Below, one piece after another: positions 6,183 through 46,406 of a DNA stretch of 64,000 nucleotides. The position numbers and the translations under genes are program-made. The notes beneath the pieces were generated by a model. The model was not told the DNA's origin and searched no databases. It saw nothing but the letters and a program-made list of their open reading frames with translations. The stretch covers positions 121,249 to 185,248 of IMG/VR virus record IMGVR_UViG_3300028581_000011; one strand, 5' to 3'. Within the stretch, counting starts at the first letter, position 1. Each line of letters opens with the position of its first letter. Source of the stretch: a virus.

Positions 6183-6183
6183 G

Positions 6184-7134
6184 TCACGCTCCTTGCTTAA
6201 CGAATATCTCGGCACCGGGCATCGGCTCTAGCGTAATAGTCTGATCATTACTGATCAGCAGCGTTTCTTCGGCCCGCAACTCAGCAGCCGTTTCGGCAAA
6301 TGGCTGCAGCGACTTGATCTGATTCTTCAGCGCTTCCTGACCGATCAACCACGGCAATGTGGTTAGGGACGCATGAACATTGGCACCCAGGTTCTGCCGT
6401 TGTGTATCGACGTGACCAATACGATCATCATAGGCCTGTTTGAGCCGCGCTGTAATGTCAAACAACTGCATCACATTCAGACGGTTCACCTGAAACACAC
6501 GGGCGGCTATAGTCGATTTCCTAAGGAGGTAACGTTCCCAACAACGAAACATCCAGTCGTGGACCTGATGCTGCGTTGTTGGGAGTCCTTCGTGTGTGCC
6601 GGCAAAAATGATTGCGTCGAGTACAACAGGCCCGCCAAAATAGCCAAACAGCTTATACAGCATTCCAGCGTAAGCGACGTCACTTTCAGTCGGCGCTTGG
6701 TGAATGGCAAAGTCACGAAGCACCGTGGTGAAGATGTAGTCTTTGAACGGCAGCCTGTCTCTAACATTGAAATATAGCTTCTCATACCAGTCCACGGAGG
6801 CTAGCGGCAGGCCGCTGTAGCTGTAAATTGAGTAATCATCCTGACCAGCCAAGATACGGGCCTGTAACACCTCACGCTTCAGCACATCCGGCCCAAAATG
6901 CATGTTGTATGCTAGGGCTATCGGAATGAAGCGACCCAGTACAGCGTCCTGTGCCTCAGCCGTAGCTGCGTCCCTGTACTGCTTGAGGAATCGGTTGTAT
7001 TGCCGTATAGAATCGTCGTCGCCACGGCGAGAAGGATTACCACGAGGCGAACGCTCTACCAGCTGGGCAACACGCTGATGCCGCCAGGAAGGGTTGCGAA
7101 ACGGGTTCAGTTGTTGGAATTCTGAAGTGAGCAT
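6184..7134 (-). CDS. Virion-block protein of unknown function, start at palindrome
   Basis: A 316-residue protein with an Arg/Pro/Asn-rich N-terminus (about residues 1-45) and a helical, aromatic-rich body. No family was recognised. The ATG at 7134 has no Shine-Dalgarno sequence. Instead the 16-bp palindrome TAATTAGCGCTAATTA ends five bases upstream of it. Expression may therefore be controlled by whatever binds that site or by coupling to the gene before it. The order of neighbours suggests a structural role. Confidence 0.65.
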   Translation of the reverse strand: MLTSEFQQLNPFRNPSWRHQRVAQLVERSPRGNPSRRGDDDSIRQYNRFLKQYRDAATAEAQDAVLGRFIPIALAYNMHFGPDVLKREVLQARILAGQDDYSIYSYSGLPLASVDWYEKLYFNVRDRLPFKDYIFTTVLRDFAIHQAPTESDVAYAGMLYKLFGYFGGPVVLDAIIFAGTHEGLPTTQHQVHDWMFRCWERYLLRKSTIAARVFQVNRLNVMQLFDITARLKQAYDDRIGHVDTQRQNLGANVHASLTTLPWLIGQEALKNQIKSLQPFAETAAELRAEETLLISNDQTITLEPMPGAEIFVKQGA

Positions 7135-7139
7135 AGATG

Positions 7140-7155
7140 TAATTAGCGCTAATTA
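7140..7155. repeat. Palindrome copy 1 (TAATTAGCGCTAATTA)
   Basis: Perfect 16-bp palindrome in the 24-base gap between two genes, immediately upstream of the ATG at 7134. Outside it, AGAT on the left and ATCT on the right are also complementary after one mismatched pair, so the dyad covers about 26 bp. The same 16-mer occurs at 30311, 44154 and 53128. It has no loop, so a DNA-binding dimer is more likely than an RNA hairpin. Confidence 0.9.
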
Positions 7156-7158
7156 AAT

Positions 7159-7590
7159 CTACATGCCAGATTCGGTAAGAATCGTGTATCCGATGTGGAA
7201 TGTAGCGGCGCTAACAGACTCCAATTCGATGTAAAGGGCTCCGGTCTGCCGAATGGTTACCGGACTTCGTTCGTCCATGTTCTCGTAGGCCCTGTCCAGC
7301 CCAAGGTCGGTGACGACCGTAGCTCCAGCGGCGGCAACGCCGTTATGCACAACGTGCACGTCAGGGTGGTGCAGGCTGATGAGGTCATCCGGATTGTCAC
7401 TATCTTCAGAAATAGACGAACAGGCGTCTTCTCTGTCGAAAATAGAGAACGTGAAACCCTCGGCCGTACCGTCAATCTGCTTAATAATGAAGCGGTTGAT
7501 GACACCGCGAATCGGTGCGCGAACAGCGAAGCACGATTTGATACCGGCCTCTACCTCCACGCTTGTTACGTAGCTGATGGGCAGACCCAT
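7159..7590 (-). CDS. Small beta-rich protein of the virion block
   Basis: A 143-residue protein with alternating hydrophobic and polar residues suggesting a beta-sandwich, no membrane segment and no recognised motif. The AAGGTGACAC before the ATG is a fair ribosome site. It lies between the large 831-residue protein and the palindrome-controlled gene and may be a head or neck component. This is position-based only. Confidence 0.65.
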   Translation of the reverse strand: MGLPISYVTSVEVEAGIKSCFAVRAPIRGVINRFIIKQIDGTAEGFTFSIFDREDACSSISEDSDNPDDLISLHHPDVHVVHNGVAAAGATVVTDLGLDRAYENMDERSPVTIRQTGALYIELESVSAATFHIGYTILTESGM

Positions 7591-7601
7591 GTGTCACCTT
7601 T

Positions 7602-10097
7602 CTATATCGAAGCAACGTCTTCAAGACTGGGTGCGGTCATCGAGCTGCCTAGCAGCGGCGATGCGTCCTTCTCTTGCAGATAAAGCGTGGTATCGCCAAG
7701 CGATTCGAACGAGTTGCGCAAGGTATCTTCCAGCTCAGGCAGGTCTGCCTTGCCGTACTGATCCATGAACTCTTCGTTGTGCCAGTAGAACATGAAAAGG
7801 ATACGGCCAAGCCTGTCCAACGCCTTGAGCAAGTCAGGGATGAACTTTTTGACCAACGAATCCTTATGCACAGCCTTTACAAGGCCGGAGATCATGGACG
7901 TATCCATAACCTCTTTCTGGCCGGTCTGCGCTGCCTGCATAGCAGACTGCATAGCATACGGATCAGGTAGAGCTTCGGGGCTCTGGTCGTATACCGACGG
8001 ATCTGTATTTCCGGCTGAGAAGGCATCTACCGGCAGCAATTCCTGCTGTGGCATGATCGACGGCGCATAGTTGCTGGCCTGACTTACGTCGTACACCGGC
8101 GCAGGAAAGGACGGGGCAACCATGCCAGGGTCTTGGGCGTACTTGATGAAGACCGTTGCAGACAGGCCATGAATGGCGGCCTTTTCTGCCTTGGCCATCA
8201 GCGCCCGTGCAGCCTTCTCACGCAAGCCGTGACGCCAGATCAGGTCAAACAACGTGGCTTTCTTCGTCTTGCGCACGCTGTCGTTAATGACGGCCTCAGA
8301 GCCCAGAACGCTTACCCTGAGCATCGGGAAAAGAGACTTGGCAGCATCTTTGATAAGTGTGCTGCTTCCAAGCTCAAATCCAGATTTGTACTGCAGCTTC
8401 AGTTCAATGTCGGGCAAACCAGACAAGATGAACGGCGCATTCTTACTCTCCCACGAGCTGCCGTATGGACCTGACATCGAAGTGCCCGGTTCATGGTCTG
8501 CGCCAGACTTGGAGATGCGCAGAACCTTGGAGTCCTCTGGGACATACAACGTGTCTCCTAGAACCCTGAAGGACGACCCGCGATGCTCGTTGAATATAAC
8601 GTGCTTACGGCCATAGGAGCATTCACCCACCGGGTAAGAACTGTCCATGGATTTGGGCGTCCATGACGGTTGAGGCTCGCCATAGTCCTGCCAATCAACA
8701 ACGCATGTATTGCCGTTCGGCTTGTCGTCGATACGGAACGGACAAGTAGCGTCACCATTCTTGGTTACGACTATATATCTGTGGTCGTAGCCTGCCGTGA
8801 GCTCGGCAGACGACAGACCTTCGTACCATTTGCCAAAGTCCTTGTCGTCGTCCTTGGCAGCTTCTCCGGTGCGCACGAAAATGTTGTTACGGTGCGTGTT
8901 CTTCCAATCGCGTGGATCCAGCTGGACAACAACAGACAAAGGCTTGTGTCCGCCGGCAGCCATTGGCTGGGAGGCAACAAAGCAGCGCTTGAAGACGCCA
9001 GGCTGCATCAACACGTCGTACAATCCGGTCTTATCCGGGTTTGTAAGCTGTATCGGACTGGTGGTTTCGTAGGCGGTGGAAACTTCGTCAGCCGCACGCT
9101 TGTCCTGAACGATATAGCCGTTGCGTACGATACGCTCACGGTCTGCATCGTTCAACCATTGCGGGCAGTAGTCTAGCGTTGACGAATCGTACGTCAGAAT
9201 GCGCAGCTTAGTCTCGGCACTCTTCTGTCCGAAAATGCCTTCCAGCTCGTCGCTGTCAGGCAGATCGCCAAATACGCTATCATCGGCGGCAGACTTGTTA
9301 TCGACGGCGTTAAGCAGCGTCTCCAGCGCTGTTTTAATGAGGTCAGGGCCGTAATGCGTGTCAAGCATATGCTTGACAGCTGGGTACTTTTTGTAGGCCG
9401 CATATGCCAGCTTGCAGAACTCAATGTCCTGAGCCAACACACACGGCAACGACAGCCGGTCATCCAAACCGGCATACTTAGCAAGTTTCCACGGGTCATC
9501 GACGGTCAGGCTGCCGTACACAGGCAGGAAGTCCAAAGACCAATCGCGGAAATGCTTCGGAAGTTCTTCTGAGAACTTACCAAACGGCGGCGTCGAAAGA
9601 CGAGTGAGGTCCGGTTGGCGAACGCCAAGCTGCTGCGCAGACCTTGAATCGCCTTCACCAAGAATGTGCGGACGCTGCGCCAGAATGTAATTGATCCAGT
9701 TTTCCTTCAGCGGCACGAACTGGTCTTTGCCCTTGAGATACAACAGCTCGTGGCCCTTCATGTCGCCATTCATGAACATGACAGGCGCATAGGCCCACTG
9801 CTCACCGATCTTGAATCCGAAGATACCAACAGCCTTGGTGGAATCTTCGTTACGATCAACAAGCTGGAAGCCTATAAGGAAGTCAAGCAGACGAGGGGCC
9901 TTATCACGAATGTGCGTATAGGCCAGGCTTGCAAAGGCCTGCTCGAATGACTGTTCCTGATCTCCACCAAGCGATGCCGCCTTGGCCAGACCTGCGGCCA
10001 CTGCGACTAATGTCTCACGTTGACGCTTAGCTTCCGCAGCGAGCTTCACGTTACGAAAACGATAAGATAGCTGTCGGTTGAAAGCAGGGGCAACCAT
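7602..10097 (-). CDS. Large virion-type protein (portal candidate)
   Basis: A protein of about 831 residues from the ATG at 10097 (MVAPAFNRQLSYRFRN); a TTG at 10115 in the same frame is an alternative and neither has a strong ribosome site. Residues about 85-140 contain VGIFGFKIGEQWAYAP and FMNGDMKGHELLYLKGKD, a distinctive block that I associate with large-phage structural proteins but cannot name. The C-terminal 150 residues include a Pro/Gln-rich linker and a helical end. Size and place at the head of the capsid block would suit a portal or a large head protein. A structure prediction could test this. Confidence 0.7.
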   Translation of the reverse strand: MVAPAFNRQLSYRFRNVKLAAEAKRQRETLVAVAAGLAKAASLGGDQEQSFEQAFASLAYTHIRDKAPRLLDFLIGFQLVDRNEDSTKAVGIFGFKIGEQWAYAPVMFMNGDMKGHELLYLKGKDQFVPLKENWINYILAQRPHILGEGDSRSAQQLGVRQPDLTRLSTPPFGKFSEELPKHFRDWSLDFLPVYGSLTVDDPWKLAKYAGLDDRLSLPCVLAQDIEFCKLAYAAYKKYPAVKHMLDTHYGPDLIKTALETLLNAVDNKSAADDSVFGDLPDSDELEGIFGQKSAETKLRILTYDSSTLDYCPQWLNDADRERIVRNGYIVQDKRAADEVSTAYETTSPIQLTNPDKTGLYDVLMQPGVFKRCFVASQPMAAGGHKPLSVVVQLDPRDWKNTHRNNIFVRTGEAAKDDDKDFGKWYEGLSSAELTAGYDHRYIVVTKNGDATCPFRIDDKPNGNTCVVDWQDYGEPQPSWTPKSMDSSYPVGECSYGRKHVIFNEHRGSSFRVLGDTLYVPEDSKVLRISKSGADHEPGTSMSGPYGSSWESKNAPFILSGLPDIELKLQYKSGFELGSSTLIKDAAKSLFPMLRVSVLGSEAVINDSVRKTKKATLFDLIWRHGLREKAARALMAKAEKAAIHGLSATVFIKYAQDPGMVAPSFPAPVYDVSQASNYAPSIMPQQELLPVDAFSAGNTDPSVYDQSPEALPDPYAMQSAMQAAQTGQKEVMDTSMISGLVKAVHKDSLVKKFIPDLLKALDRLGRILFMFYWHNEEFMDQYGKADLPELEDTLRNSFESLGDTTLYLQEKDASPLLGSSMTAPSLEDVASI

Positions 10098-10245: not shown

Positions 10246-13200
10246 CTACCCAATTCGGCCGATGGGCTTCGGCGCCTCGGGCAACTTTGGCTTAGCAGCA
10301 ACCTGTGTAGCAGGCGCCGTAGTAGGTGCAGACATAGGCTTCGGTGCAGCAGGAGCCACCCAACCTTGTGGGGCTGTCTGGGCAAATCTGGCCTGAAAAT
10401 CTGTATCCGGATTGGCCTTCAGAAACTCCTGCGTAGGCATATGTTGCTGCAACTTGTTGTCGTAATACCAGCTATCGTCTGGAGCTGTGTTGTAGAAACC
10501 TTGCAGCGCTTCTCGTGAATATGGTGTTCCACGCTGCTGTTGCACATGCTGTAACTGTGCTTGCCCTTGCTGCACGCCCCTAGCTGCCCCAACGGCATTT
10601 CCAACCTCTTTGCTAGCTGCGTACGCCTCTCCAGGCAAATTGATCAAGGAGCGTATGGGCTTCATATTGGCGTTTATCGCTGCGCCTGCGTAGCTGAGCA
10701 AACCATTAGTTGGATCCTTGAAACCTAGAATAGTATTGTCTGGTGTCACATCATTCATAAACTTCTTGTGATCGCTCCAGCCAAATCCTGTTTCTCTCTT
10801 GCCGCCGAGCATCTCCGGTAACAAACCAACACCGTCGACAAGTTCCAACGCACCATTTATAGGCGTAGCCCATAAACTAGCCGTGCCACCAATTCTTTTA
10901 GCAGCGGCTTGTCCAAGTAAGCCCATGCCAGTTGAGGCTGCCGCCGATGGAGCAACAGCCGCAGTCACAGGCAGAATGTAATCAGTGAAGCCCGGCTTAG
11001 GCGGTGGCACAGTAGGAGGCGGCACAGGAGCAACGGATTGCTCAGCTGGCGACTGTGGTGCATCGGACTGCTCGTTTATAGGTTGCCTTGGTTGCACAGG
11101 TTGTGGCTGCGCAGGTGCGGGCTGAGGCTGTACGGGGGCTGGCTGTGCCACTGGCTGAGCAGCAGGTTGTGCGGGTGCCGGCGGCTGTACAGGTGCTGCA
11201 GGTTGCGTAGTGTCAGGTGTTAACGGCTCTGTCGGCGTAGCCGGATTACCGCTAAACAGCATATCTTGAGCTGCAGACGGGTTCATCATGGCCATGAATA
11301 GCATCTGGCCTAGTGGTCCCATCTTCTCTAGCAAAGGCAACAGCATCGGCATAATGCCGGCCATTGAGAAGCCCTGGCCGTCATTTTGTTCCGGCATCAA
11401 CTCTGCAGCAGTCTTTGGTGCAGCCAGTTCCGCAGGTGTGTAATCTCTTGGCGTTCGTACCTTGCCCTTGCCGATTTGACCTGTGGCCAGCGCAGGTACA
11501 AAGCTAGTGCCCATAGGATCGCTGATAGCACCTCGTTGCGCACCCTCAAGTACGCTGCCCTTCAGACCGCTGCCAAACATGCGTGTAAGCCAGTCTGGAT
11601 CATGCTGCAAATTAGCCATGCCGCGAATCATCTCTGGTTCAAACGGCGGCGGATCGGCATGAACGTCGATGTTCTCCACGCCAAACTTCTTCAGCTGTTT
11701 GACAACACTTGGTCGTATCTTGGTGCCAATCGAATAATGCAGATATGGGCGTTCTAGATACTTACCAACTGCTCGTGCGGTTGGCAAACTATCGTAGCCA
11801 TCTCGTGGCCGATACTTCTTCTCAACAACGTCATAAGGCACAACGTCATCAGGAGCCAAGTCGTCGAGTTCGTCAGTCAGTCTGACGTGATTTATGAGAC
11901 CCTTGGCCAACAGCTCTATGTTTCGACGATGCCCGCCGATACGGGCATTGGCATAGGCCTTCCTGAAGGCATCAAGAAAGTAACGTCTGCCTTCACCAAC
12001 ACCTTTATGCTCTGTAATGACAGCTGGGTTGGGCTCACCCTCGCTAAGCATGTCACCGGCTTCTATGTTATCGCCAGGCTTAACGACAGGTTCGAAGCCT
12101 TCGCCTACATAGTGCTTGGTGCCATCGACGGATATGTACTTACCACCGGCTGGTGCAGGGTCGATGGACTCAACATGACCATCAACAGTGGCATGTACAG
12201 CGCCGCCTTTGAAGGTCTTAGGAACCTGCACAAGCTGATTGATCCAATCAAAACCGGAGATAGCTGCAGAGCCACCAGCACCAGCTACACCGCCCGTATG
12301 CTTGCTCGAATTAGACACAATCAGACCATTGGCAAGTACGAAAAGGTGATCTTCGTGTGCCACTTCTAGGTCATGTGTATACTGATGACCGATAGCAATC
12401 TGCTCTTTCCTGTACAGTCTGTTACGCGACGCAGTAGGTCTAGGTCTCCATGTGGCCAAACAAGCTACCAGCGTGTGTCTCTTAACACCGTACAACGGGA
12501 TATTAGCGGCAAACTTTAGCAGGCTGTCACGAAATGTGATTACGAAGCTGTAAAGAACGTGCTTTCGCTTATCCGCCCCGCTAGGTTTTGGTATAGAGGC
12601 ATATATGCCAAAACGCCATTCCAGCAGCTCTTTGACCTGCTCTACAAGTCTTAGTGATGTTGATCCGAATGAGATATGTACGGCCCCTCCTTTTGCTTTA
12701 TTTTGCTCGGATACGTACACAGACCCATCTGTCACCATCAGTCCGGCTATCAGCTCTGCCACAGACGCATTGTTCCAGCTGTAAGCCTCGTGAGGTATGA
12801 TCTTTTCGTAGGCATATTTACCTGCCATTCCGTACCGCACCAGCATTTGCATTGCTGGATTTCTATACGATCCGTTAAATCGACCAGTTGTGGCATCCTG
12901 AGCTGTACGTGCTTGGTCAATCTGACTTACTCGATAATAGCCTCGCTGACCGGCCAATAGGGTAGTCTTCAAGTTCAGCGCGGATAGGCGTGGCGCTATA
13001 TCGGTAATTAACATCGGATCAAAACACGACAAGTGAAAACCGTTCACACTGTTCGTGTAGCATCCATCACCTAATCCTAGCCCCATCAAAAGCGCAAATG
13101 GTTCTTCTCTTAGTCCGGCCGCTGTGAATCCGGCAGGCCGCAAACCAGCAAAACGACCCTTGCCGGCCTTCTGGCCTACTGGATAAATACCTTCAATTGT

Positions 13201-15660
13201 GTCTGTAGCACTGAACGGATATGTACTCAATGACGCCAGTATCTTGTGGTCTAACGTGGATTCAAGGGTGATTCGCTGCCTGGCTAGACCAACTTGAAAC
13301 GCCGTCTGATGACAATTTCGCAGGCCGTTGTCAAAGCAACGCAACACCTGGACAGGGAAGGTATTTCCGTGACGGTCAGCGCCTAGTACCCAGTCGCCTG
13401 GACGTATCTGCTCGATTGGTCTGACACTCCAGTCGGCCATACGTACCAACGTACCACGCACAAGACAAATTTGTGCCTGGGTAAGCGGTTCAGACAACGC
13501 CTGTGATGCCGTTAATGCTGGATTCTCACCGATATTAGGCAGTCTTCCGAATTCACGGATGCCTACGTCACGCGCATAAACGCTGCCATCACCAGGCCCA
13601 TTAACCATTGGGCTGCGCACAAGGATGTCGTCTATGCCTTTGTGACGAAGATCAGCCAGTATCTTGGGCGTCAGGATGGTGTTGCGAGGATAACCGCCGG
13701 CAGGTGCAGACAACAATGCACCTTCGTTATCACCATCGTCTGTGCGTGACGGCAATCCAACCAACGTTTCTGGATCTTTATCTGCGTCTAGTGACGTGAC
13801 GATAGCTCGGTGAACAATCTGACTGAGCTGCTTAGACAAGAACCCAGCGTCCCTAGTGGAATTGGAGACTATGAGCCCATTGGCCAGAACAAACAAATGA
13901 TCAGGGCAGGCAACTTCAAGATCAAACGTTTCACAAAGGCCCATTGATTGCTTGTCAATGATCTTAAATCCGTATTGATCCCCATCAGCACGGCGCGACT
14001 GGTATAGCCTGGCTTTCTGAAGTCTCCGGGCCTTCACACCAAACAATGGAACACGCGCAGCAAAACGACTAACTGACAAAGGGTGATTGATCGTCAGTCG
14101 CCACTGGTCGTGTGTTGCGTTAGGTCCGCATTTCTCCACAGGAACGAAGTTTAAGGACGACGTCCATATTCCAAGCCGCAGCTCCAACAGACGCTGCACG
14201 CCTAGAAGTAACTGCTTGGACGTCGATCGAATGTAGATCGAACAGCCATTTTTTCTAGTTTCGACACCGCCGTCAGTCAAAAAGATACCAGCCAGTAAAT
14301 TGCCAATGGCTGCATCGTCCCAGCCCCACACCGCACCTGGCAACGTCTTTTCATGGGCATAATACTCGCCAAGACATTCTCGCAGCCAACGCTTTGACGG
14401 GTTCAAATGTCCTTTGGCAAAACAATTACGGTTGTTCTTCCGAATGACAACTCGTTTCGTCTTATCTATCTCAACTAACGCGGCGCTGTAACTACCGACC
14501 ATGGGCTGGAAGCGCAAGTTGAATACGCCGATACGCTGATTTATTAGCTGTAACAACTCATCATCTGCACAAGACAACGTGTAGCAACCGTGACATTTTG
14601 GCGTCATACATCCGTCACCTAGCATCAGCCCGGCCAGCAACGCATGCGGCTCGGGTCGGCCTATTCCGGCAGCTCCTTGAGCTGGATAGGCCGAGAATGT
14701 ATTTTTGCGAGGGTTCTTTTGTACGCGTGCCCGCCACATAGGCAACGCTGTTGGTTCGTATACGGATCTGTGGGCATAGGTTGAACCTGGCCTGCCATCC
14801 TTGATCTGAGCCAGTACCTTGTGGTCTTCGGTTGCACCTAGCTCTCGAATGGAATCATCCTGTCGACAGCCGCCCTTCCTAAATCGATAGCGAAAACACT
14901 CTCGATGCCCATTAGCGTATACAGCGGTTACCTGCACCGGGAACATATTGCCACATGTATCGGCGCCCATCACCCAATCACCAACACGAATCTTCTTTAT
15001 AGGCTTCTCACTGTAGTCAGCCATCAGCACAAGCGTGCCGCCAACTAGACACATTTTGAGATCGATTAGGCCCTTCCTAGTACCATACGATCCAGCCCAG
15101 TATTCGGCGGGTGAATAACCCTGCGAATAACTGTGTCTGATGGGCACTGGAATGACACGGTCACGATGATCGGTAAACAGCAACTCGCTACCACGCAACG
15201 CAGCCAATCCAAAAGCATTACCACGAGAACCAGATCGGATTTGTCGGGCCAACGGGTTGTCTTCTTGCAGGCTTTCTTCGAGCACATCTTTAGACATGCG
15301 CTCGCCAATCTTGCCTGTCATCTTGACCAGCTGCTTGTCGCGCTCGTCGTCACTCAGGCTGTCATCGCTAAGAATTCGAGTAAGTCCGTCAAGCAACGTT
15401 TTCTTATGCTGCGTGGCTACCTTAGCCTCTGTCAGATGCCGTAGACCAAATGAATCGCCGCCAGAGCTAAACGATATGTGCTTGCCGATCTGCAACAGAC
15501 GATGGGATATATCCCTGTACTTCTCTGGATATTTCTGTGCAATCGTGCGCAGCAGTTTGCTCATTGCAGCCTTATCAATGACAGCGTTATAGTCCCGTAG
15601 CTCTTCAGGGAGCACGGAGTTCACCATCAACGAGCCTATCGTCGTCTGCAACCTGGCCAT
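10246..15660 (-). CDS. RNA polymerase beta-prime, C-terminal half, with two inteins and a long tail
   Basis: The 1804-residue precursor would give about 1021 residues after splicing. Before intein 3 it has the block ending SGSRGNAFGLAALRG and then GTRKGLIDLKM, the start of the beta-prime bridge helix. STRDAGFLSKQL after the intein completes the helix. SEPLTQAQI before intein 4 and SSKHTGG after it form the trigger-loop helix; the catalytic His is kept while the usual Met-Arg is Ile-Ser. The beta-prime C-terminal region follows to about residue 1400. The last 400 residues are a Pro/Gln/Ala-rich linker (about 1470-1560) plus a domain of unknown role not found in cellular enzymes. The start ATG has AGGAAG upstream. 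It pairs with the fusion protein at 17058-23651 to make a complete active centre. Its place in a structural block hints that the enzyme may be packaged, which is inference. Confidence 0.92.
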   Translation of the reverse strand: MARLQTTIGSLMVNSVLPEELRDYNAVIDKAAMSKLLRTIAQKYPEKYRDISHRLLQIGKHISFSSGGDSFGLRHLTEAKVATQHKKTLLDGLTRILSDDSLSDDERDKQLVKMTGKIGERMSKDVLEESLQEDNPLARQIRSGSRGNAFGLAALRGSELLFTDHRDRVIPVPIRHSYSQGYSPAEYWAGSYGTRKGLIDLKMCLVGGTLVLMADYSEKPIKKIRVGDWVMGADTCGNMFPVQVTAVYANGHRECFRYRFRKGGCRQDDSIRELGATEDHKVLAQIKDGRPGSTYAHRSVYEPTALPMWRARVQKNPRKNTFSAYPAQGAAGIGRPEPHALLAGLMLGDGCMTPKCHGCYTLSCADDELLQLINQRIGVFNLRFQPMVGSYSAALVEIDKTKRVVIRKNNRNCFAKGHLNPSKRWLRECLGEYYAHEKTLPGAVWGWDDAAIGNLLAGIFLTDGGVETRKNGCSIYIRSTSKQLLLGVQRLLELRLGIWTSSLNFVPVEKCGPNATHDQWRLTINHPLSVSRFAARVPLFGVKARRLQKARLYQSRRADGDQYGFKIIDKQSMGLCETFDLEVACPDHLFVLANGLIVSNSTRDAGFLSKQLSQIVHRAIVTSLDADKDPETLVGLPSRTDDGDNEGALLSAPAGGYPRNTILTPKILADLRHKGIDDILVRSPMVNGPGDGSVYARDVGIREFGRLPNIGENPALTASQALSEPLTQAQICLVRGTLVRMADWSVRPIEQIRPGDWVLGADRHGNTFPVQVLRCFDNGLRNCHQTAFQVGLARQRITLESTLDHKILASLSTYPFSATDTIEGIYPVGQKAGKGRFAGLRPAGFTAAGLREEPFALLMGLGLGDGCYTNSVNGFHLSCFDPMLITDIAPRLSALNLKTTLLAGQRGYYRVSQIDQARTAQDATTGRFNGSYRNPAMQMLVRYGMAGKYAYEKIIPHEAYSWNNASVAELIAGLMVTDGSVYVSEQNKAKGGAVHISFGSTSLRLVEQVKELLEWRFGIYASIPKPSGADKRKHVLYSFVITFRDSLLKFAANIPLYGVKRHTLVACLATWRPRPTASRNRLYRKEQIAIGHQYTHDLEVAHEDHLFVLANGLIVSNSSKHTGGVAGAGGSAAISGFDWINQLVQVPKTFKGGAVHATVDGHVESIDPAPAGGKYISVDGTKHYVGEGFEPVVKPGDNIEAGDMLSEGEPNPAVITEHKGVGEGRRYFLDAFRKAYANARIGGHRRNIELLAKGLINHVRLTDELDDLAPDDVVPYDVVEKKYRPRDGYDSLPTARAVGKYLERPYLHYSIGTKIRPSVVKQLKKFGVENIDVHADPPPFEPEMIRGMANLQHDPDWLTRMFGSGLKGSVLEGAQRGAISDPMGTSFVPALATGQIGKGKVRTPRDYTPAELAAPKTAAELMPEQNDGQGFSMAGIMPMLLPLLEKMGPLGQMLFMAMMNPSAAQDMLFSGNPATPTEPLTPDTTQPAAPVQPPAPAQPAAQPVAQPAPVQPQPAPAQPQPVQPRQPINEQSDAPQSPAEQSVAPVPPPTVPPPKPGFTDYILPVTAAVAPSAAASTGMGLLGQAAAKRIGGTASLWATPINGALELVDGVGLLPEMLGGKRETGFGWSDHKKFMNDVTPDNTILGFKDPTNGLLSYAGAAINANMKPIRSLINLPGEAYAASKEVGNAVGAARGVQQGQAQLQHVQQQRGTPYSREALQGFYNTAPDDSWYYDNKLQQHMPTQEFLKANPDTDFQARFAQTAPQGWVAPAAPKPMSAPTTAPATQVAAKPKLPEAPKPIGRIG
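12310..13467 (-). other. Intein 4 (in the beta-prime trigger loop)
   Basis: 386 residues in frame (precursor 732-1117). It starts with Cys (CLVRGTLVRMADWS) and ends HLFVLANGLIVSN before Ser, a standard splice junction of the Hint family with Cys+1, penultimate Ser, terminal Asn and Ser as the first extein residue. Two LAGLIDADG-type helices are present (LLMGLGLGDGC and ELIAGLMVTDGS), so a homing endonuclease domain is retained. It splits the trigger-loop helix just before the position of the E. coli beta-prime Arg933 equivalent. It is clearly related to intein 3. Confidence 0.92.
13861..15051 (-). other. Intein 3 (in the beta-prime bridge helix)
   Basis: 397 residues in frame (precursor 204-600). 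It begins CLVGGTLVLMADYS and ends HLFVLANGLIVSN before Ser. LAGLIDADG-type helices LLAGLMLGDGC and NLLAGIFLTDGG are both complete with the acidic residues of the endonuclease active site. It interrupts the bridge helix after GLIDLKM. Its first block and last 13 residues nearly match intein 4, so the two probably share a recent ancestor. Confidence 0.92.
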
Positions 15661-15661
15661 C

Positions 15662-15955
15662 TTACTTCCTGTGTGTGCGTAGGCAGAATTCCACTCGTGC
15701 CAACTCGTAGTCTGTAAGACTGGCTTCTATGAATGCTTGCTCTTCTTTTGTCACAGGGCCTACGACAACCTTTTCGTTCTGTCGTAAGCTTTCACGGATC
15801 GTGGCTACATCGTTTACCAATTCGGCAACATTCAAGCTTGTAGCAACCTCGGTGACTTGCCCAGGCGCAGGCACAATACTAGCGTTGAGCCAACGCGCAT
15901 AACGGCTAGCCCGCTGCGTTGTTTCTACGTCTTGCGAAGGTAGATGATTCATCAC
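15662..15955 (-). CDS. Small protein between RNA polymerase genes
   Basis: A 97-residue soluble protein with helical prediction and no recognised motif. The first two codons are both ATG (15955 or 15952) and overlap the stop of the upstream gene. It lies between the beta/beta-prime-N and beta-prime-C genes and ends two bases before the latter starts, so it is co-transcribed and could be an RNA polymerase accessory subunit. There is no sequence evidence for that beyond position. Confidence 0.65.
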   Translation of the reverse strand: MMNHLPSQDVETTQRASRYARWLNASIVPAPGQVTEVATSLNVAELVNDVATIRESLRQNEKVVVGPVTKEEQAFIEASLTDYELARVEFCLRTHRK

Positions 15956-16212
15956 AACACCTTGGGCAGATCTTCAGCGGGTCTTAGCTTGTTTGTAACG
16001 TCATCGACTATGACAAACTTGTTGAACCCTAGCCGGTCCAGAACACGATTGAAGTCTTCATCAGTAGCTCTGGATATGAAGACTTCACCGTCTACAAGTT
16101 CACAGGCCACGGCCAGAGGCACGCCTGCGTTATCTTCCAACACGACCATTCTCATGCCGTCACGTAGTAACGGCGACTTATCGCCCAGGCCTCTAAGCGC
16201 CTTTAGCCGCAC
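15952..16212 (-). CDS. Small protein between RNA polymerase genes
   Basis: An 86-residue protein that starts at a GTG at 16212 with AGGAGG seven bases upstream, inside the end of the previous gene (20-base overlap). The sequence has several short beta strands (MVVLEDNAGVPLAVACEL, EVFISRA, FVIVDDV). No family was recognised. Overlaps on both sides mean tight translational coupling with the RNA polymerase genes. Confidence 0.65.
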   Translation of the reverse strand: MRLKALRGLGDKSPLLRDGMRMVVLEDNAGVPLAVACELVDGEVFISRATDEDFNRVLDRLGFNKFVIVDDVTNKLRPAEDLPKVL

Positions 16213-16975
16213 GATTGGCCTCCTCGATGATTCGAGCCAATGCAGCTGCCTTGTCGGAGATACCTAGTGCGGTATTGCCGATGGACTGTCCAGGACTCCT
16301 GACACGAGCTATGGCCAATTTACTTGCACCCTGTTTTCCTGCCATGGCCAACTCCGGTGAAGCCGGTTGTATAGCCTCGATAGGTTTGATCGCCGATTCG
16401 GCCTGTGCACTCTCCCCGCCACCACCGGAGTCTCCTCCGGACGCATCTTCAGCACCAGCCTCGCGATCTTCAGGTCGCAGCAACATATCAGGAGGAACCT
16501 GCAAGCCCATTGTGTTGAAGATCGTCACCATCATCTTCTTGAGCTGATAGATTTCCTCGCCAGGATCAATCTTGGTAGGCTTCTTAGCCCCAGACGCTCC
16601 GTCCGAGCCCTTAGCGCCACCAGCCCCACCCATGGCTTCCTGTATGATCTGGCGAACACGTTCCTCAGTAAGGCCCGCAGCAGCCCCTGCAGGGGCACCA
16701 GACGGCGCTGGAGGCATTCCACCCATGGAAGGGTCCATCGGGGCGCCAGCAGCCATTGCCGGGTCCATAGGAGGCATTCCGCCCATCATAGACGGGTCCA
16801 TCGGCGGCATCCCGCCCATCATGGCTGGGTCCATAGGCATTCCTGGAGGTGCTCCACCGGCCATAGCCGGATCGGCAGGCATTCCACCAGCGGCCATGGC
16901 AGGATCAACAAATGCCGCTTTGTTATGCAGCTCTTTGACCAGTGTCAGCAGCGCCGGGTTGAAGATTGTGTTCAT
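16193..16975 (-). CDS. Protein with Met/Pro/Gly-rich repeats between RNA polymerase genes
   Basis: A 260-residue protein. Residues about 23-92 hold at least six imperfect repeats of the type DPAMMGGMPPM, which are flexible and low-complexity. The rest is a helical segment with RVRQIIQEAM and YQLKKMMVTIFNTMG, a Gly/Ser/Asp-rich linker, and a C-terminal helical part. A similar Met/Pro/Gly tract is seen in the scaffold-like protein at 789-2036, so the two may share a role in the virion. No known family was recognised. Confidence 0.65.
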   Translation of the reverse strand: MNTIFNPALLTLVKELHNKAAFVDPAMAAGGMPADPAMAGGAPPGMPMDPAMMGGMPPMDPSMMGGMPPMDPAMAAGAPMDPSMGGMPPAPSGAPAGAAAGLTEERVRQIIQEAMGGAGGAKGSDGASGAKKPTKIDPGEEIYQLKKMMVTIFNTMGLQVPPDMLLRPEDREAGAEDASGGDSGGGGESAQAESAIKPIEAIQPASPELAMAGKQGASKLAIARVRSPGQSIGNTALGISDKAAALARIIEEANRAAKGA

Positions 16976-17057
16976 GCGTTGAATCCCTGTAACTAATTAA
17001 GGTAGGACAGCCTGTAGTATAGCTCGTATAACCATCGCTAACTACGTCGGCACAGCA

Positions 17058-20000
17058 TCACTGGTCTATCTCAACTACAGCATTAGCAGGCAGATCGCCA
17101 CGTAGGTAGGCTGCGATTGCGTCCTGTTGCGACCGCATGTAATGCACTCTGGACTTACCCTTGGCTCGGCTAGTGCCTGCATACAGGCCACCTAGAAATT
17201 CAGTTGTGGGTGCGTGTACGGGCGTCTTGAAATCTGCAGGGCTTAGCAAATTACGGCTGGGCAACATGCGTTCAACAGCGTCTCGCTTCGCCTCTTCTGA
17301 CACCGGCACATGAAACTGCATGGCGTCACCGTCGAAGTCAGCATTGAAGCCTTTGACGATGAGCGGACTAATCTGCATCGTTTTACCTTTAGTCAGCTGT
17401 GGCCAGAATGCCATGATGCCAAAGCGATGCAGCACCGGTGCGCGATTTATGATGACAGGCCGATTAGCCATTTCGGCCAGCATTTCTTTCTTGGCCGTGG
17501 GCGTTCGTTCCTTGGCCTGTCGTGCAGCTTCTACAATGTTAAGCCCCTTGCGGTGCAACCTACGCACAATGAAGTTCTTATAGATGTCCCAAGCTCGATC
17601 CTCAGGGATGGCTACTTGATCCATATCCAAGTCAGGATTTGGACTAATGACAGCGCGACCTACAAGATCCACGGTGGTGCTTATGAGTCGGCGCTGTACA
17701 GTGTTGCCCGAGAAGAACGGTTTGCCGTTCCTCCGTACATAGACAATGCCATTAGGCACACTGACACAGTGAACCTGCCCAACATAATTCACAACCTTGT
17801 GACTTTTCTTACCTTCAGCAACGACAAACTTGCTGTCGGAAAGATTTATTCGGCAAAGTGGCTGACAGACCTCGTCTCGCGCCGGCATCCAACGAAGACG
17901 AGCAGTCACACCCAGCTTGCACGCGATTTCCTGTATATCGCCGGCAAGAGCCTCGCTGATCGTATGCGCATTCTGATGACGGGACAACAACTGGCCACAA
18001 TTCTTGTGCGTTACGCCTCCACCGTTTTGCCTTGGACTGTATCGTCGCGTTCCATCTCCGTCGAGATAAGCAAGAAAGAACGCTTTCAAAAAAGGTGCAT
18101 CCCAGTCACGAATCTTAGCTGACAACTTTTTGGTTTTTGAGCCAGTTCGAACATTCGTTGTCAGCCACTTCGCCAGGTCTTTCGACCGGATTGACCATTG
18201 CCACACCCAAGTCTTGCCCTTACTACTTGCACGAAAGTATTTACCAACAGAAAACTTGATGCCAAGCGATTGTACAAGTCGAGCTATTTCCTTGCACTTC
18301 ACCTCATGCTTGACTGCTTGACACAGTTGTATGCAGTCACGTTTACGATCGCCTAGCCAACCCTCTGCTGCCCACCAGCCGACAAATGCCGCAAAGTCTT
18401 GTAGCCTGCATGATTTGCTCAAGAAACTAGGACGACGACGATGACCACGCCACGTCGAGGCAGCTGTACGAAACCATTTGCGGTTGCCGTTGGCGGCAGT
18501 CATATACGCACGCTCAATTTGCCAGCCAGCCTCCATGTCATCGGCGCTATCCACATCTCCGCGACGATAACGTATCCAATTACGGTGATTAGGCGTTACG
18601 ACAGAATCCAAGCCGCGAGAGGTACCAAACCAGAACAACTCACCATCATAGTCCCAGTGGAATACTCCTTTCGTCATCTGCCATTCAAACGCGCCTGTGT
18701 CCGGGTTCAATGTTCCTACCTGGGTATCGTCAGTAAGCTCCGGGAATTTCACCCAGCCGTCTTTTGTCAAAATTTCTGTATCGTCGTCATAGCAGCCAAA
18801 CTTTGGACTTGAGCCAAACACACGGGACAATATGCCCTTCACTCGTTTCTGTTGCAGCTTGGGGTGAACAGGGTCGCCAAGACCTGTGATAGCCTTGAAC
18901 GTGTTGTACACAGCTAACCGCTCATCACCGACGTCTGACACTTTGCCTTGAAGCTCTTTCAGATTATCAACAGCGTCGAAGGCATCTTTGTACAAATAGT
19001 TGACGTCTGACACAAGCGGTAGATTGGAGTCCTGCATCACACTGATCGGACGAAACATAGGCGGCAAAACAGGTATCTTGGATATCATCCAATCACCTGG
19101 ATGTATGCCGAGCTCCTTGGCCGACTTCAAATATCCGAGTTTACGGATCGCTGTGTCTCTAGCAGTCTTCTTGCTGCCGTGTATCTGCGCTCGTGCTAAC
19201 TCAATCTCGTGATCCAGATTGAGCTTCTGCAATGCCGTCTGAATAGCCTTAGGTCCCTTGCCAGTCGGCAACGAGTCCTTACCAGCCAAAACATCAAGGA
19301 ACTTTTGTTCCGTGAGTCCGAGAATACGGCGTATTGGCTCCTCCATCACTGGCGAAGGCATTACCTCAGGCAACCGTATAAAAGACCAACGATTGCCGTC
19401 AGTACCACCTGTCAACGACGGGTCAAACAAACCGCCAGGAACCGGCTTTAGCGCACCTTCACGATCAAGCTGCATAGTCTTGGCCGTCTTCAACTCACGG
19501 GTGCCGGCCATTACGTCTACATCTTTATCGGTCAGAGCCATTAGCTGCAGCTTAGACCCTGTGGGCACAACATTGATTCCAGCGCCCTTCAGCTCACTGA
19601 CAAACTTTTGCCACACCATCGGCACCTTAGTAGCCGTGGGTGTGTGACCTTGCATGAGCTTGAGCCAGAAGTCTTCGTTACGTTGTCCACGAATCTGCAT
19701 AGCGTCTTGCAGCACACCAACAGACCCGTGGCTCAACAGAGCACTGGTGTCCATGAGACTGATCCGCTTACTTCCAGTCTCCCCTCCTTTAGAGGGACTG
19801 CCTTCAGATGTGTAGCCGCCAGTGCCTCGACCTTGGCTCTTAGACTCTGCAGTATGTGCAAGCTTCATGATGAAGCGATTGCCAACAAGCACGTCCTTGA
19901 TCTTACGCCCCGTCTCAGGGTCGATGATGTCTTCGGTATCCTTCATACCGTGCTTGGCCAACTCGTCCATCGCGTACTTGACCATGTCCTGGTCTGTTTC

Positions 20001-23000
20001 AAAATCGATGGGCTTATATGGCTTGCCGGTTATGGCAGCTATCTTGCCTAGCGCAGCCTCTACAACCTGCGCTGGATTTCCACGTGTAATCACGCCCAGA
20101 GGATTAGCCAACACTTCCAGCGGTCGTCCCTGGCTGTCATGCGGCATTTTCTCATCAGGGATGATTCCGGAGATTATGCCCTTATCGCCATATCTGCCAC
20201 TGTTACCACACCATACTGGTTTGCCATTACGTCTAACATACAGTACATGATTTTTAGGCAGGCTCACACAGTACACCTGCCCATTAAAATGAACCCATTG
20301 CTCCTTCTGTCCTAACTGCTTACTACAATGGCCGTGATTGATCTCAGGCTGGTTTTTGCTGCGATAAATTGACACCCAATAGCGTTTGCGGAACCTGTAT
20401 CGACGACCCTTTATGACACCAATTCTACTAGGTTGAAAATCAATATTGGCACTCATACCTAGATGCAAGGCTAATCGTTGAACATCATCTGCCAGTCGTC
20501 GAGACGTGGTGTGATACGCATGTGATGTACCTGTGCAAGAACCATCACCCCACATAAGCCAATCGTACAGTACTTGAAGCGTAGCCCTATCCCAGTTGAA
20601 AACGCTTAATGGGATAAACTTTTGCCAACACTTACCAAACTGACGTAGATGCTGATACCACTGCAGACTGTAAACGCGAATCTTAGTCTTTCGGCTGTGT
20701 TCGCTAAATTTGACACCCATCTGGCGTAACGCACATAGCAGATGTTTGCGACCTGGTTGTTTAATTTGCGTGATATCGAAGCCACAACCATGCCGGCCAG
20801 AATTGAATGTATTGCCTTCAGACAGGAACGCGCCGAGAACAGCTGCGTAAGTCTTCACTGGTACCTTCAATGCCGGGATGACCCTTTTACCGCGACCGCT
20901 CTGACCTGCTTTAACAGTTACAGCCGCTAGCGTCACGAATTTAGGACTACGCCCGATCCATTCGCCGTCACGCTTCAACCGATATCGCTTACCGTACAGA
21001 TGTCTAGCTTCAATTAACGAATAATGCTTACTGTTTCTCGGTTGTGCGTAAAGACTGTGATTGTCAGTGACACACAAACTGACCTGCGTTGTTTCCAAGG
21101 AGTACATAGGCCCGGTGTACGAAAACTGCTGTATTGCCGCCGGTAACAAATACTCTATCTGATTATCGGCTGTAAGTGACGCACAGCGATCACGCGGGGT
21201 TATCGACGAAATCAATTTCCACCCTGTGGCTGTTAGGCACTCCGTATCAGGGCTGTAGCACAGCTTGTCCCCGACTTCGGTGCTAGCTATCGATTTGACA
21301 ACTACAGTGACACCCTTGTCGTTTCGTACGACGTCAGTCACCTCGCCAGGAGAATGGTGGTTCCACAACACACTGGCGTCAGTGAAAGACTTGGCACCCT
21401 TCTTATGCACACGACCATAACTCGGCGTGCGCTCTTGTGCCGCAACTATCAGCGGGTCATCTTCGCTGACGATAGAGCCGGGTCGAACAATGCCGTCGTC
21501 ATCCAGTTGGCCAAGTTGCTTGCGGTCGAACTTCGTTGCAAACAACGAGACAAATGCCTTCTTCCCGACCTTATGAGAATCGCTGGGCTCAAACTTGTGT
21601 TGATACATATGTTCGCTGTCGAGACGCTTGGCAAAGCTCTCTGACACAACATAAGCATCTTCGAAGTTCAATCCACCGAATGGTACGTAGGCAATACGGG
21701 CGTTCTTACCTAACGCCAAAGCACCTGTCTTGTCCGTGGAATTTGTACGTACTAGCAAATCACCCGGCTTGAATACATCACCAGGCTTAACCGTGGCAAA
21801 CTGGTGATGATAGCTCTTACGATTGTTCGGATAATTGTTGTACAGCGGGAAGGTCTGCTTATTGCCATCTTCGTACTGCACTGTCAGTGCGTCAGCTGTG
21901 GCGTCTAGCACACGACCAGCTTTGTCAGAGAATACCGTACCGAGCTTACGAGCATACTCTTCCTCGTAGCTAGCGCCCGGCTTATCCGGCATACCTGACT
22001 GAACCCACGGAGCCTCAGGATCAACAAGATTGAGGGCCTGCGTAATGAACCTGGAGCCCATGACAGTGCGCTGGCCCTTAACCATGCTCTTGAGCGGCAC
22101 TAGATTGCCTAATGGCGACATGGCTTGTTCGAAATGCGGTACGACATAGTCGACATCGCTCTTCTTCACCCACTGCATACGCCCGTTACGCATGGCAACG
22201 ACGCGAGGCAGCTGCGTGTTCATCTCACCTGGAAATGCTATCGTGGAGTTGGCAATGTCTTGTGGCGATCTGTAGACCTGTTTGCCAGTCTTGATGTCGA
22301 CGAATGGTGAGTACAGCTTGCCGCCAGGGCCTTTGCGCGAAGCTCGTGCAAAGTACACATCCACACCGCTACGATAAGACTCAGGAGTACGCAGCGGATC
22401 GACAAAGTTCAGATGCGACGGCTGCACCGTTCGGGCATCTTCTGGCACAGCGTCCATGCTGGACAGACCACCCTCACCCATACGAGTAAGCTTCCATAGC
22501 TTATCGTATATCTCGGCGGAATTAACTTCTTCCAGGTTCTGACCAAGACCAGAGTTCAGCAGCGCTGATTCAAGCTGCTTTCCCAAGGCATTAGCAGGAA
22601 TAGCCGACAAGCCATTCTTGAATGTGGCCCTGTACAGCAGCTTTCTACGCATACCGCCGTAGTCTTTGGCAAGACGCTCAGCAAAGATGTCTTCAGGAGA
22701 ATGCACAGTCTGGAAGGCTAGATGATCACGGTCATCCACTTCCTGCTTACCTTGTGAGATAGCAAGCAGTTTCTTCGTAGTATCCAAAATGGCCGGCAAT
22801 GTCAGTCGATCATACGGCTTTCCGAGCGTAGCTTTTGTGACCTCAGGATCAAGCCGCATGTCTGATAGCGACTTGGCTAGCATCTCACGACGCATGTTGT
22901 CGTCGGCATCAGCTGGAACCCTAGACACAAAACGCTGTACCAGTTTGTGAAGCGCTACCGTCTTATCCGCACCGCTGTTGGCAGCGAGAATATCAGGGCC

Positions 23001-23651
23001 CCACGCTTCATTAAGCATCTTGTCGTCGGCACCCATGGCCCGTAGCAACGGAATCATGGGAATCTTGGCCTGTCCTACGCGGGCGTAAAAGACACCCTTG
23101 GCAGGATCAAGAAAGTAACGATGTGCACGACCTTCACCCGGCAACACGTTAACGTGTGCTTCTATCTCGTTGTTCTCTTTGACACGAGTGAATATACCGG
23201 GTCGCAACCGAAGCTGGCTGGTAAGCGTGTACTCGTTACCACGGAAGATGAATGTGCCTCGTTGTGTCATGTGAGGCACACGAGCTATAGTCATCTTTCG
23301 TTGTTCGACAACTTGATTGTCGGCGGCATTGATGAGTCGCCACGTTCCTCGCAAACGCCTATCCAACGTACCGTTGGTAAGTACGGCCTTCTTCTCTTCA
23401 GCCGGCGTACGTTCCTCGGGGTCAGCGTAATGTACGTCAGCCAGCTGCAAGCTGTAGCGATTGTTAGACAGCGGCTTGAGCTTCTGTGCCGCATCCAAGA
23501 CATTGGCATAAATGCCACGCCGTGTCTGCGCAGGATTACCAAACTCAGCCAGCGTAGTCTCATCAGGCTCTACAAATGCCGGTGGAGCAATCGGCGGCAA
23601 TTCGTCGGCCTGCTTGTCGCACAGAAAAGCATCGTCACTGAAGACACTCAT
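17058..23651 (-). CDS. RNA polymerase beta fused to beta-prime N-terminal half, with two inteins
   Basis: The 2197-residue precursor would give about 1480 residues after splicing. Beta features run from the N-terminus (RGTFIFRGNEYTLTSQL, the fork/lobe region) to the catalytic lysine block VGDKL/SGRYGDKGI split by intein 1. The beta C-terminus (about residues 1270-1420) runs straight into beta-prime, with PVLPPMFRPI and the region before switch 2, where intein 2 sits. The beta-prime active-site triad NADFDGD is at 2103-2109. The protein stops about 80 residues later, well before the bridge helix, which is on the gene at 10246-15660. Multisubunit polymerases with split subunits are known in phiKZ-like phages, but this exact split and fusion is unfamiliar to me. 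It would transcribe phage genes independently of the host enzyme. A modest ribosome site (AGGA, nine bases) precedes ATG. Confidence 0.93.
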   Translation of the reverse strand: MSVFSDDAFLCDKQADELPPIAPPAFVEPDETTLAEFGNPAQTRRGIYANVLDAAQKLKPLSNNRYSLQLADVHYADPEERTPAEEKKAVLTNGTLDRRLRGTWRLINAADNQVVEQRKMTIARVPHMTQRGTFIFRGNEYTLTSQLRLRPGIFTRVKENNEIEAHVNVLPGEGRAHRYFLDPAKGVFYARVGQAKIPMIPLLRAMGADDKMLNEAWGPDILAANSGADKTVALHKLVQRFVSRVPADADDNMRREMLAKSLSDMRLDPEVTKATLGKPYDRLTLPAILDTTKKLLAISQGKQEVDDRDHLAFQTVHSPEDIFAERLAKDYGGMRRKLLYRATFKNGLSAIPANALGKQLESALLNSGLGQNLEEVNSAEIYDKLWKLTRMGEGGLSSMDAVPEDARTVQPSHLNFVDPLRTPESYRSGVDVYFARASRKGPGGKLYSPFVDIKTGKQVYRSPQDIANSTIAFPGEMNTQLPRVVAMRNGRMQWVKKSDVDYVVPHFEQAMSPLGNLVPLKSMVKGQRTVMGSRFITQALNLVDPEAPWVQSGMPDKPGASYEEEYARKLGTVFSDKAGRVLDATADALTVQYEDGNKQTFPLYNNYPNNRKSYHHQFATVKPGDVFKPGDLLVRTNSTDKTGALALGKNARIAYVPFGGLNFEDAYVVSESFAKRLDSEHMYQHKFEPSDSHKVGKKAFVSLFATKFDRKQLGQLDDDGIVRPGSIVSEDDPLIVAAQERTPSYGRVHKKGAKSFTDASVLWNHHSPGEVTDVVRNDKGVTVVVKSIASTEVGDKLCYSPDTECLTATGWKLISSITPRDRCASLTADNQIEYLLPAAIQQFSYTGPMYSLETTQVSLCVTDNHSLYAQPRNSKHYSLIEARHLYGKRYRLKRDGEWIGRSPKFVTLAAVTVKAGQSGRGKRVIPALKVPVKTYAAVLGAFLSEGNTFNSGRHGCGFDITQIKQPGRKHLLCALRQMGVKFSEHSRKTKIRVYSLQWYQHLRQFGKCWQKFIPLSVFNWDRATLQVLYDWLMWGDGSCTGTSHAYHTTSRRLADDVQRLALHLGMSANIDFQPSRIGVIKGRRYRFRKRYWVSIYRSKNQPEINHGHCSKQLGQKEQWVHFNGQVYCVSLPKNHVLYVRRNGKPVWCGNSGRYGDKGIISGIIPDEKMPHDSQGRPLEVLANPLGVITRGNPAQVVEAALGKIAAITGKPYKPIDFETDQDMVKYAMDELAKHGMKDTEDIIDPETGRKIKDVLVGNRFIMKLAHTAESKSQGRGTGGYTSEGSPSKGGETGSKRISLMDTSALLSHGSVGVLQDAMQIRGQRNEDFWLKLMQGHTPTATKVPMVWQKFVSELKGAGINVVPTGSKLQLMALTDKDVDVMAGTRELKTAKTMQLDREGALKPVPGGLFDPSLTGGTDGNRWSFIRLPEVMPSPVMEEPIRRILGLTEQKFLDVLAGKDSLPTGKGPKAIQTALQKLNLDHEIELARAQIHGSKKTARDTAIRKLGYLKSAKELGIHPGDWMISKIPVLPPMFRPISVMQDSNLPLVSDVNYLYKDAFDAVDNLKELQGKVSDVGDERLAVYNTFKAITGLGDPVHPKLQQKRVKGILSRVFGSSPKFGCYDDDTEILTKDGWVKFPELTDDTQVGTLNPDTGAFEWQMTKGVFHWDYDGELFWFGTSRGLDSVVTPNHRNWIRYRRGDVDSADDMEAGWQIERAYMTAANGNRKWFRTAASTWRGHRRRPSFLSKSCRLQDFAAFVGWWAAEGWLGDRKRDCIQLCQAVKHEVKCKEIARLVQSLGIKFSVGKYFRASSKGKTWVWQWSIRSKDLAKWLTTNVRTGSKTKKLSAKIRDWDAPFLKAFFLAYLDGDGTRRYSPRQNGGGVTHKNCGQLLSRHQNAHTISEALAGDIQEIACKLGVTARLRWMPARDEVCQPLCRINLSDSKFVVAEGKKSHKVVNYVGQVHCVSVPNGIVYVRRNGKPFFSGNTVQRRLISTTVDLVGRAVISPNPDLDMDQVAIPEDRAWDIYKNFIVRRLHRKGLNIVEAARQAKERTPTAKKEMLAEMANRPVIINRAPVLHRFGIMAFWPQLTKGKTMQISPLIVKGFNADFDGDAMQFHVPVSEEAKRDAVERMLPSRNLLSPADFKTPVHAPTTEFLGGLYAGTSRAKGKSRVHYMRSQQDAIAAYLRGDLPANAVVEIDQ
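17703..18794 (-). other. Intein 2 (at beta-prime switch 2)
   Basis: 364 residues in frame (precursor 1620-1983). It starts CYDDDTEILTKDGWVKF and ends VHCVSVPNGIVYVRRNGKPFFSGN before Thr. The penultimate residue is Gly rather than His, a variant found in some inteins. LAGLIDADG-like helices FAAFVGWWAAEGWLG and FLKAFFLAYLDGDGTR are present. The flanks SSPKFG and TVQRRLIS join to give a normal beta-prime sequence leading into DLVGRAVIS. Confidence 0.9.
20202..21260 (-). other. Intein 1 (between the two catalytic lysines of beta)
   Basis: 353 residues in frame (precursor 798-1150). It starts CYSPDTECLTATGWKLI and ends VYCVSLPKNHVLYVRRNGKPVWCGN before Ser. LAGLIDADG-like helices YAAVLGAFLSEGN and LYDWLMWGDGSCTG are present. 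The exteins VGDKL and SGRYGDKG rejoin to the highly conserved beta motif carrying both catalytic lysines (E. coli Lys1065 and Lys1073 equivalents). Its C-terminal block resembles that of intein 2 (YVRRNGKP in both). Confidence 0.92.
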
Positions 23652-46318: not shown

Positions 46319-46340
46319 AATGTTATCCTTGTTAAGGCGC

Positions 46341-46385
46341 ATAGAAGAAACGAGCTGGTCCGCCCTGCGTAGAACGGACCAGCTC
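46341..46385 (-). terminator. Hairpin terminator
   Basis: An 11-bp perfect stem (GAGCTGGTCCG / CGGACCAGCTC at 46352-46362 and 46375-46385), 12-base loop, then GTTTCTTCT on the minus strand. It lies after the gene at 46407-47738. Confidence 0.75.
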
Positions 46386-46406
46386 ATATTACGACAGACT
46401 GCCTAT

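Follow-up and report, generated by a model that had tools for sequence, protein, structure and literature searches.

Four putative LAGLIDADG inteins in the active centre of a phage multisubunit RNA polymerase

Inteins of multisubunit RNA polymerases have been described from the second-largest subunits (RPA2, RPB2 and RPC2) of eukaryotes and NCLDV, at six sites and with one intein per gene, and the same paper names archaeal examples, Mja rPol A′ and A″ and Nph rPol A″ (PMC1635734). In haloarchaea, the essential enzyme encoded by mcm has inteins at four sites lying close together, each with its own endonuclease (PMC10643990). Amongst phages, the mReC phages of the Caudovirales encode β and β′ subunits near the cellular enzymes (Weinheimer and Aylward 2020, PMC7481178), whilst Salmonella phage Arash carries in its virions an enzyme with β fused to part of β′ (PMC10585845); neither of these two texts mentions inteins. 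Here we describe a phage polymerase of similar layout whose active centre, as read from its sequence, very probably harbours four full-length LAGLIDADG inteins, predicted both to splice and to home.

The locus comes from an IMG/VR record of 185,248 bases, possibly incomplete. The window, by which we mean the whole stretch analysed, is 64,000 nt long and corresponds to bases 121,249-185,248 of that record. The polymerase is encoded on the minus strand as follows:

17058-23651, minus strand: gene A, RNA polymerase β fused to the N-terminal half of β′ (ORF, Pfam, extein alignments)
17325-17345, minus strand: NADFDGD, the catalytic Mg2+-binding motif, within the final gene A extein
16193-16975, minus strand: ORF of 260 aa separating genes A and B
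10246-15660, minus strand: gene B, C-terminal half of β′ plus a Pro-rich tail (ORF, extein alignments)
10246-11463, minus strand: tail of gene B, ~400 aa, past the β′ homology, with a Pro-rich linker

Both frames are open throughout, and removal of the inserts described below shortens the gene A precursor from 2197 to 1480 aa and that of gene B from 1804 to 1021 aa. Pfam identifies β and β′ domains in gene A, and LAGLIDADG domains in both genes. The split in β′ falls just past the DFDGD domain; a β-β′ fusion running through DFDGD together with a separate gene for the β′ C-terminus, the arrangement that marks the Arash type, is found here as it is in Arash, Vibrio phage D69 and ~80 IMG/VR loci. 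End to end, spliced gene A is 33% identical to Arash gp206 and 32% identical to D69 VPHD69_0261, and for spliced gene B the identities with the β′ C-terminal proteins of Arash (gp216) and D69 come to 26% and 27%. Profiles of the phage alignments matched cellular β (E ~1e-108) and β′ (E ~1e-69) in the PDB, and the spliced exteins retain the two active-site lysines, NADFDGD and the trigger-loop His. The Pro-rich tail of gene B is missing from Arash and D69; long tails are present in two related loci, L113 and L085 (L numbers denote loci of relatives). A second polymerase of the gene A/B type was not found in the possibly incomplete 185-kb record, nor was sigma factor region 2. Elsewhere in the window are an adenylosuccinate synthetase-like gene (45008-46387; PHROG name 2-aminooxy adenylosuccinate synthetase), which possibly hints at modified adenine in the genome, and a transposase-like ORF (46407-47738; PHROG, E 2.8e-13).

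The four inserts, designated I1 to I4, are listed with their junctions and E. coli equivalents, the latter mapped via a profile:

20202-21260, minus strand: I1, 353 aa, in β between the two active-site lysines; GDKL/SGRYGDKG, E. coli M1066/A1067
17703-18794, minus strand: I2, 364 aa, at the N-terminal end of β′ switch 2; SPKFG/TVQRR, E. coli G336/R337
13861-15051, minus strand: I3, 397 aa, in the β′ bridge helix; DLKM/STRDAG, E. coli L788/K789
12310-13467, minus strand: I4, 386 aa, in the β′ trigger helix; TQAQI/SSKHTGG, E. coli M932/R933

From what is known of bacterial RNA polymerase, these positions are the lysine block, switch 2, the bridge helix and the trigger helix, in agreement with a preliminary description of this DNA that had placed four in-frame inteins in these elements. 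All four inserts are in frame and intein-free homologues are contiguous at each site, with Arash, D69 and ~70 IMG/VR populations uninterrupted at all four. That description had proposed aligning the exteins to β and β′; once freed of inserts they align unbroken across the joins with Arash gp206/gp216, D69 and cellular β and β′. Its reading of a Cys start and an Asn end before Ser or Thr is borne out by the codons at all four junctions: each intein opens with TGC or TGT (Cys), and the terminal Asn is followed by AGT, ACT, TCC or TCG (+1 Ser, Thr, Ser and Ser). Likewise, the LAGLIDADG-like motifs it reported in all four are present, with LAGLIDADG_3 above the Pfam cut-off in 4/4 inteins and each intein holding two motifs, both with the acidic catalytic residue kept. 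Besides the Ser/Thr at +1, Cys1, TxxH in block B and the terminal Asn are invariant in both of the intein families described below. The penultimate His, which is usual though not obligatory, is missing from all four, with Gly in its place in I1/I2 and Ser in I3/I4; Gly-Asn ends are known from inteins elsewhere (PMC1635734). I2 is without the usual block F His (VPNG instead of VPNH), and the N-terminal intein model scores below its cut-off on it. When the whole 185-kb record, possibly incomplete, was searched with both family profiles, with LAGLIDADG_3 and with the intein models for the N- and C-terminus, nothing intein-like turned up outside genes A and B.

I3 and I4 share 37% identity (E 1e-60) and I1 and I2 share 25% (E 5e-22). 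Only short stretches match between the pairs, which we judge to be two distantly related intein families. The I3/I4 profile matches the solved inteins PI-SceI, PI-MtuI and DnaE inteins, and the I1/I2 profile matches PI-PkoII and V-ATPase inteins. Class 3 inteins are marked by a Cys at block F position 4, a block B Trp and a Thr at G:5, with no N-terminal nucleophile. One of these marks, the Cys at block F position 4 (VYC/VHC), is invariant in I1/I2. However, we rejected a class 3 assignment as both begin with Cys1, I1 lacks the block B Trp, and G:5 is Cys or Ser.

The expected course of events is that splicing would follow translation, through an acyl shift at Cys1, transfer to the Ser/Thr at +1 and cyclisation of Asn, and that excision would restore the β-β′N and β′C chains, which would then assemble. 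Each endonuclease would cut the intein-free alleles of co-infecting phages, with repair copying the intein in. Catalytic sites make good refuges for such elements, as their DNA is a conserved target and imprecise deletion kills the enzyme.

In a census of 97 populations (97% identity clusters, sampled with a bias towards the query's relatives), at least one intein was present in 20, and the enzyme family as a whole has at least 18 intein sites. Numbered by extein residue, those in gene A are 397, 405, 424, 535, 612, 797 (I1), 837, 916, 940, 957, 1066, 1266 (I2) and 1392, and those in gene B are 199, 203 (I3), 211, 325 and 334 (I4). The bridge helix accordingly has sites 199, 203 and 211 among relatives, and the trigger helix has 325, 334 and approximately three more; a scan of viral contigs for the I3/I4 family showed sites beyond the numbered ones in both helices. 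Nine inteins occur in the single polymerase of L113 (IMGVR_UViG_3300022723_000184; also L195 and L196), at gene A sites 424, 535, 612, 797, 837 and 916 and gene B sites 199, 325 and 334. To our knowledge, nine inteins in one enzyme is above earlier records. With several sites per helix, the rule of one intein per catalytic element that the preliminary description had drawn does not hold, and the pattern in the window is a chance occupancy of a larger set of sites. That inteins lie at these places is itself not chance, for other phages, in independent contigs, have inteins at the I1, I3 and I4 sites; no other intein was found at the I2 site among relatives.

Several relatives carry inserts of other kinds or at other places. 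NADFDGD, intein-free in the window, is interrupted in L192, where a 513-aa intein (L192:7541-9079, site 1392) sits immediately behind DYDGD, the motif with which β′ binds the catalytic metal. Natural split inteins lie near gene A residue 940 (L063:12700-13800 and L064:12600-15200), the N-intein ending one ORF and the C-intein opening the next, up to ~2 kb apart; another is probable in L116 near 8855, where the ORFs overlap. Mini-inteins occur in the bridge or trigger helix of L116 (14294-14794), L215, L220, L223 and L226 and, since they measure only 126-167 aa, have no room for an endonuclease. Finally, L056, L058, L076 and L082 carry insertions of 300-430 aa at gene A residues ~245-275, in the β lobe region, that are not intein-like.

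At most sites, the inteins found there are one another's closest kin. The partner of I4 is the trigger-helix intein of L113 (98/97), and I3 falls with the bridge-helix inteins of L113 and L149 (100/100). I1 breaks this pattern. The other five inteins at site 797 make up one close-knit clade (55-65% identity; 100/100), and I1 is only ~27% identical to them; therefore, this site has probably been invaded twice. In the scan of viral contigs, 29/29 strong matches belonged to a phage RNA polymerase and lay in its bridge or its trigger helix, as judged from the flanking exteins, though the scan favours members of its own family because the search patterns were drawn from it. The I3/I4 lineage looks specialised, being found almost only in these two helices; it has probably spread among their sites, whilst a second lineage, I1/I2, colonised β and switch 2. 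Local conservation, computed on intein-free sequences (71 for gene A, 77 for gene B), averaged the 83rd percentile at the window's four sites (p 0.008) and the 81st percentile at the 18 family sites, with 0/20,000 random draws as high. The I3 site is only median (50th percentile).

Outside the window, five populations of relatives carry at the I1 site an intein that differs from I1, and in each the frame stops five residues into the C-extein (SGRYG-stop). Coordinates are those of the first-named locus:

5550-6620: hairpin-stop intein locus L113 (population L113/L195), stop TAG
6563-7620: hairpin-stop intein locus L115 (population L115/L085/L084), stop TGA
7564-8640: hairpin-stop intein locus L122 (population L122/L081), stop TGA
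7579-8630: hairpin-stop intein locus L149, stop TAA
2228-3290: hairpin-stop intein locus L192, stop TAA

The polymerase frame picks up at GATAA(A/G)GG, 5, 6, 7, 7 or 9 bases past the stop, and downstream it runs on without a stop for at least 675 codons, with pN < pS. Across the five populations the intein end and extein start are nearly invariant in nucleotides (GGACAAAACGTACTGGTC...GGCCGGTACGG), whereas the rest of the site-797 intein has the same codon in only ~40-45% of shared residues. This segment forms a 12-bp hairpin directly before the stop, fully paired in 5/5 with one compensatory pair; the covariation is weak, eleven of the pairs being constant. The hairpin folds better than most synonymous recodings of its peptide, of which only 12, 1, 27, 0 and 6 per 2000 reached as low a value in the five loci, and better than shuffled sequences (z scores of -3.8 to -5.6 in the four loci tested). 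I1 itself has neither the hairpin nor the stop.

Judging from these sequences, expression of the polymerase in the five populations seems to need recoding. Our leading guess is a hairpin-assisted ribosomal bypass, which resembles that of T4 gene 60; a split gene or a repair scar is possible. We would go only tentatively further, to a reading that we hold doubtful: that the intein and the bypass signal travel as one mobile unit, in which case the ribosome would have to jump and the protein to splice before the polymerase is active. Other explanations were tried and set aside. A group I intron found no Rfam match in six loci, the inserts being inteins plus a stop; for rescue by a second polymerase copy, no N-terminal part was found in the L081 and L085 records; simple reinitiation lacks a start codon common to all five at the resuming frame; and a matched-codon hop as in T4 gene 60 has matching Gly codons in only 3/5. 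Searching bacterial genomes for the hairpin pattern gave 15 matches, mostly in high-GC actinobacteria and 0 with the flanking block, which we took as chance.

In Arash both orthologues rank among the virion's most abundant proteins, with 3516 and 1210 spectra (PMC10585845), and the gene that comes next after the polymerase, in an order common to both phages, corresponds to an Arash structural protein. By homology to Arash, whose orthologue is 33% identical, the phage probably packages the mature enzyme in its virions, and splicing would take place late in infection, ahead of packaging. Because the Arash orthologues are abundant in virions, the incoming enzyme would probably have been spliced before packaging, and the enzyme that starts an infection may thus have been spliced in the previous host. 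This bears on the earlier statement that the phage could not transcribe with the enzyme until all four inteins had spliced out. In part it stands: judging from position, unspliced inserts would very likely block an active enzyme, as a chain that still held its inteins would scarcely be able to build the catalytic centre, and an equivalent argument has been made for RPB2 inteins (Goodwin 2006, PMC1635734). It is nevertheless too strong, given the pre-packaging splicing suggested by the Arash virion enzyme and a host polymerase that may serve some phage genes.

One might also see the inteins as selected regulators, whose conditional splicing turns the polymerase on late, for packaging. All four are placed where activity must be blocked, the orthologue is a virion protein in Arash, and conditional splicing is proposed for other inteins (PMC7360933). 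However, most relatives are intein-free (20/97 sampled populations have one), site occupancy varies freely among them, and the endonucleases look intact, as those of selfish elements would; we consider regulation unlikely. Somewhat less likely still is that some inteins are decaying remnants, no longer splicing or homing, in a gene that is inactive or partly functional. The non-canonical penultimate residues would fit such decay, as would the block F and N-terminal shortcomings of I2. Against this, the frames are open, Gly-Asn ends are seen in other inteins (PMC1635734), and all four keep Cys1, TxxH, Asn, the +1 Ser/Thr and both LAGLIDADG acids, whilst the exteins retain DFDGD, the two lysines and the trigger-loop His. 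The metagenomic origin of the record raises the thought of assembly artefacts or chimeras, to which we give almost no credence, for the junctions are precise and in frame and homologous inteins occupy the I1, I3 and I4 sites in independent contigs. Full-length inteins that splice and home are thus the reading we prefer.

In summary, the novelty lies in the number and context of the inteins and not in a new kind of element. The active centre of phage RNA polymerase is a very dense intein refuge, with several sites per catalytic helix, and the family offers natural material for studying site choice by selfish elements and the splicing load that one essential protein tolerates. It also bears on whether a virion polymerase must be spliced in order to be packaged. 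As in the eukaryotic and NCLDV second-largest subunits, the inteins of the window occupy several non-allelic, conserved sites of the active cleft, with LAGLIDADG endonucleases and some Gly-Asn ends; in contrast to those genes, four occur at once, in β and β′ and including the bridge and trigger helices, in a tailed phage (PMC1635734). The archaeal A′ and A″ inteins are alike in lying in the largest subunit, and I3 matches the A″ subunit model PRK14898 weakly (E 0.0012). The mReC phages are alike in being Caudovirales with β and β′ near the cellular enzymes, whilst Arash has the same fusion and split. Haloarchaeal mcm resembles the phage polymerase in having close intein sites within a single essential enzyme, every intein bringing an endonuclease of its own, but its four sites compare with at least 18 in the phage family, of which up to nine are filled in one enzyme (PMC10643990).
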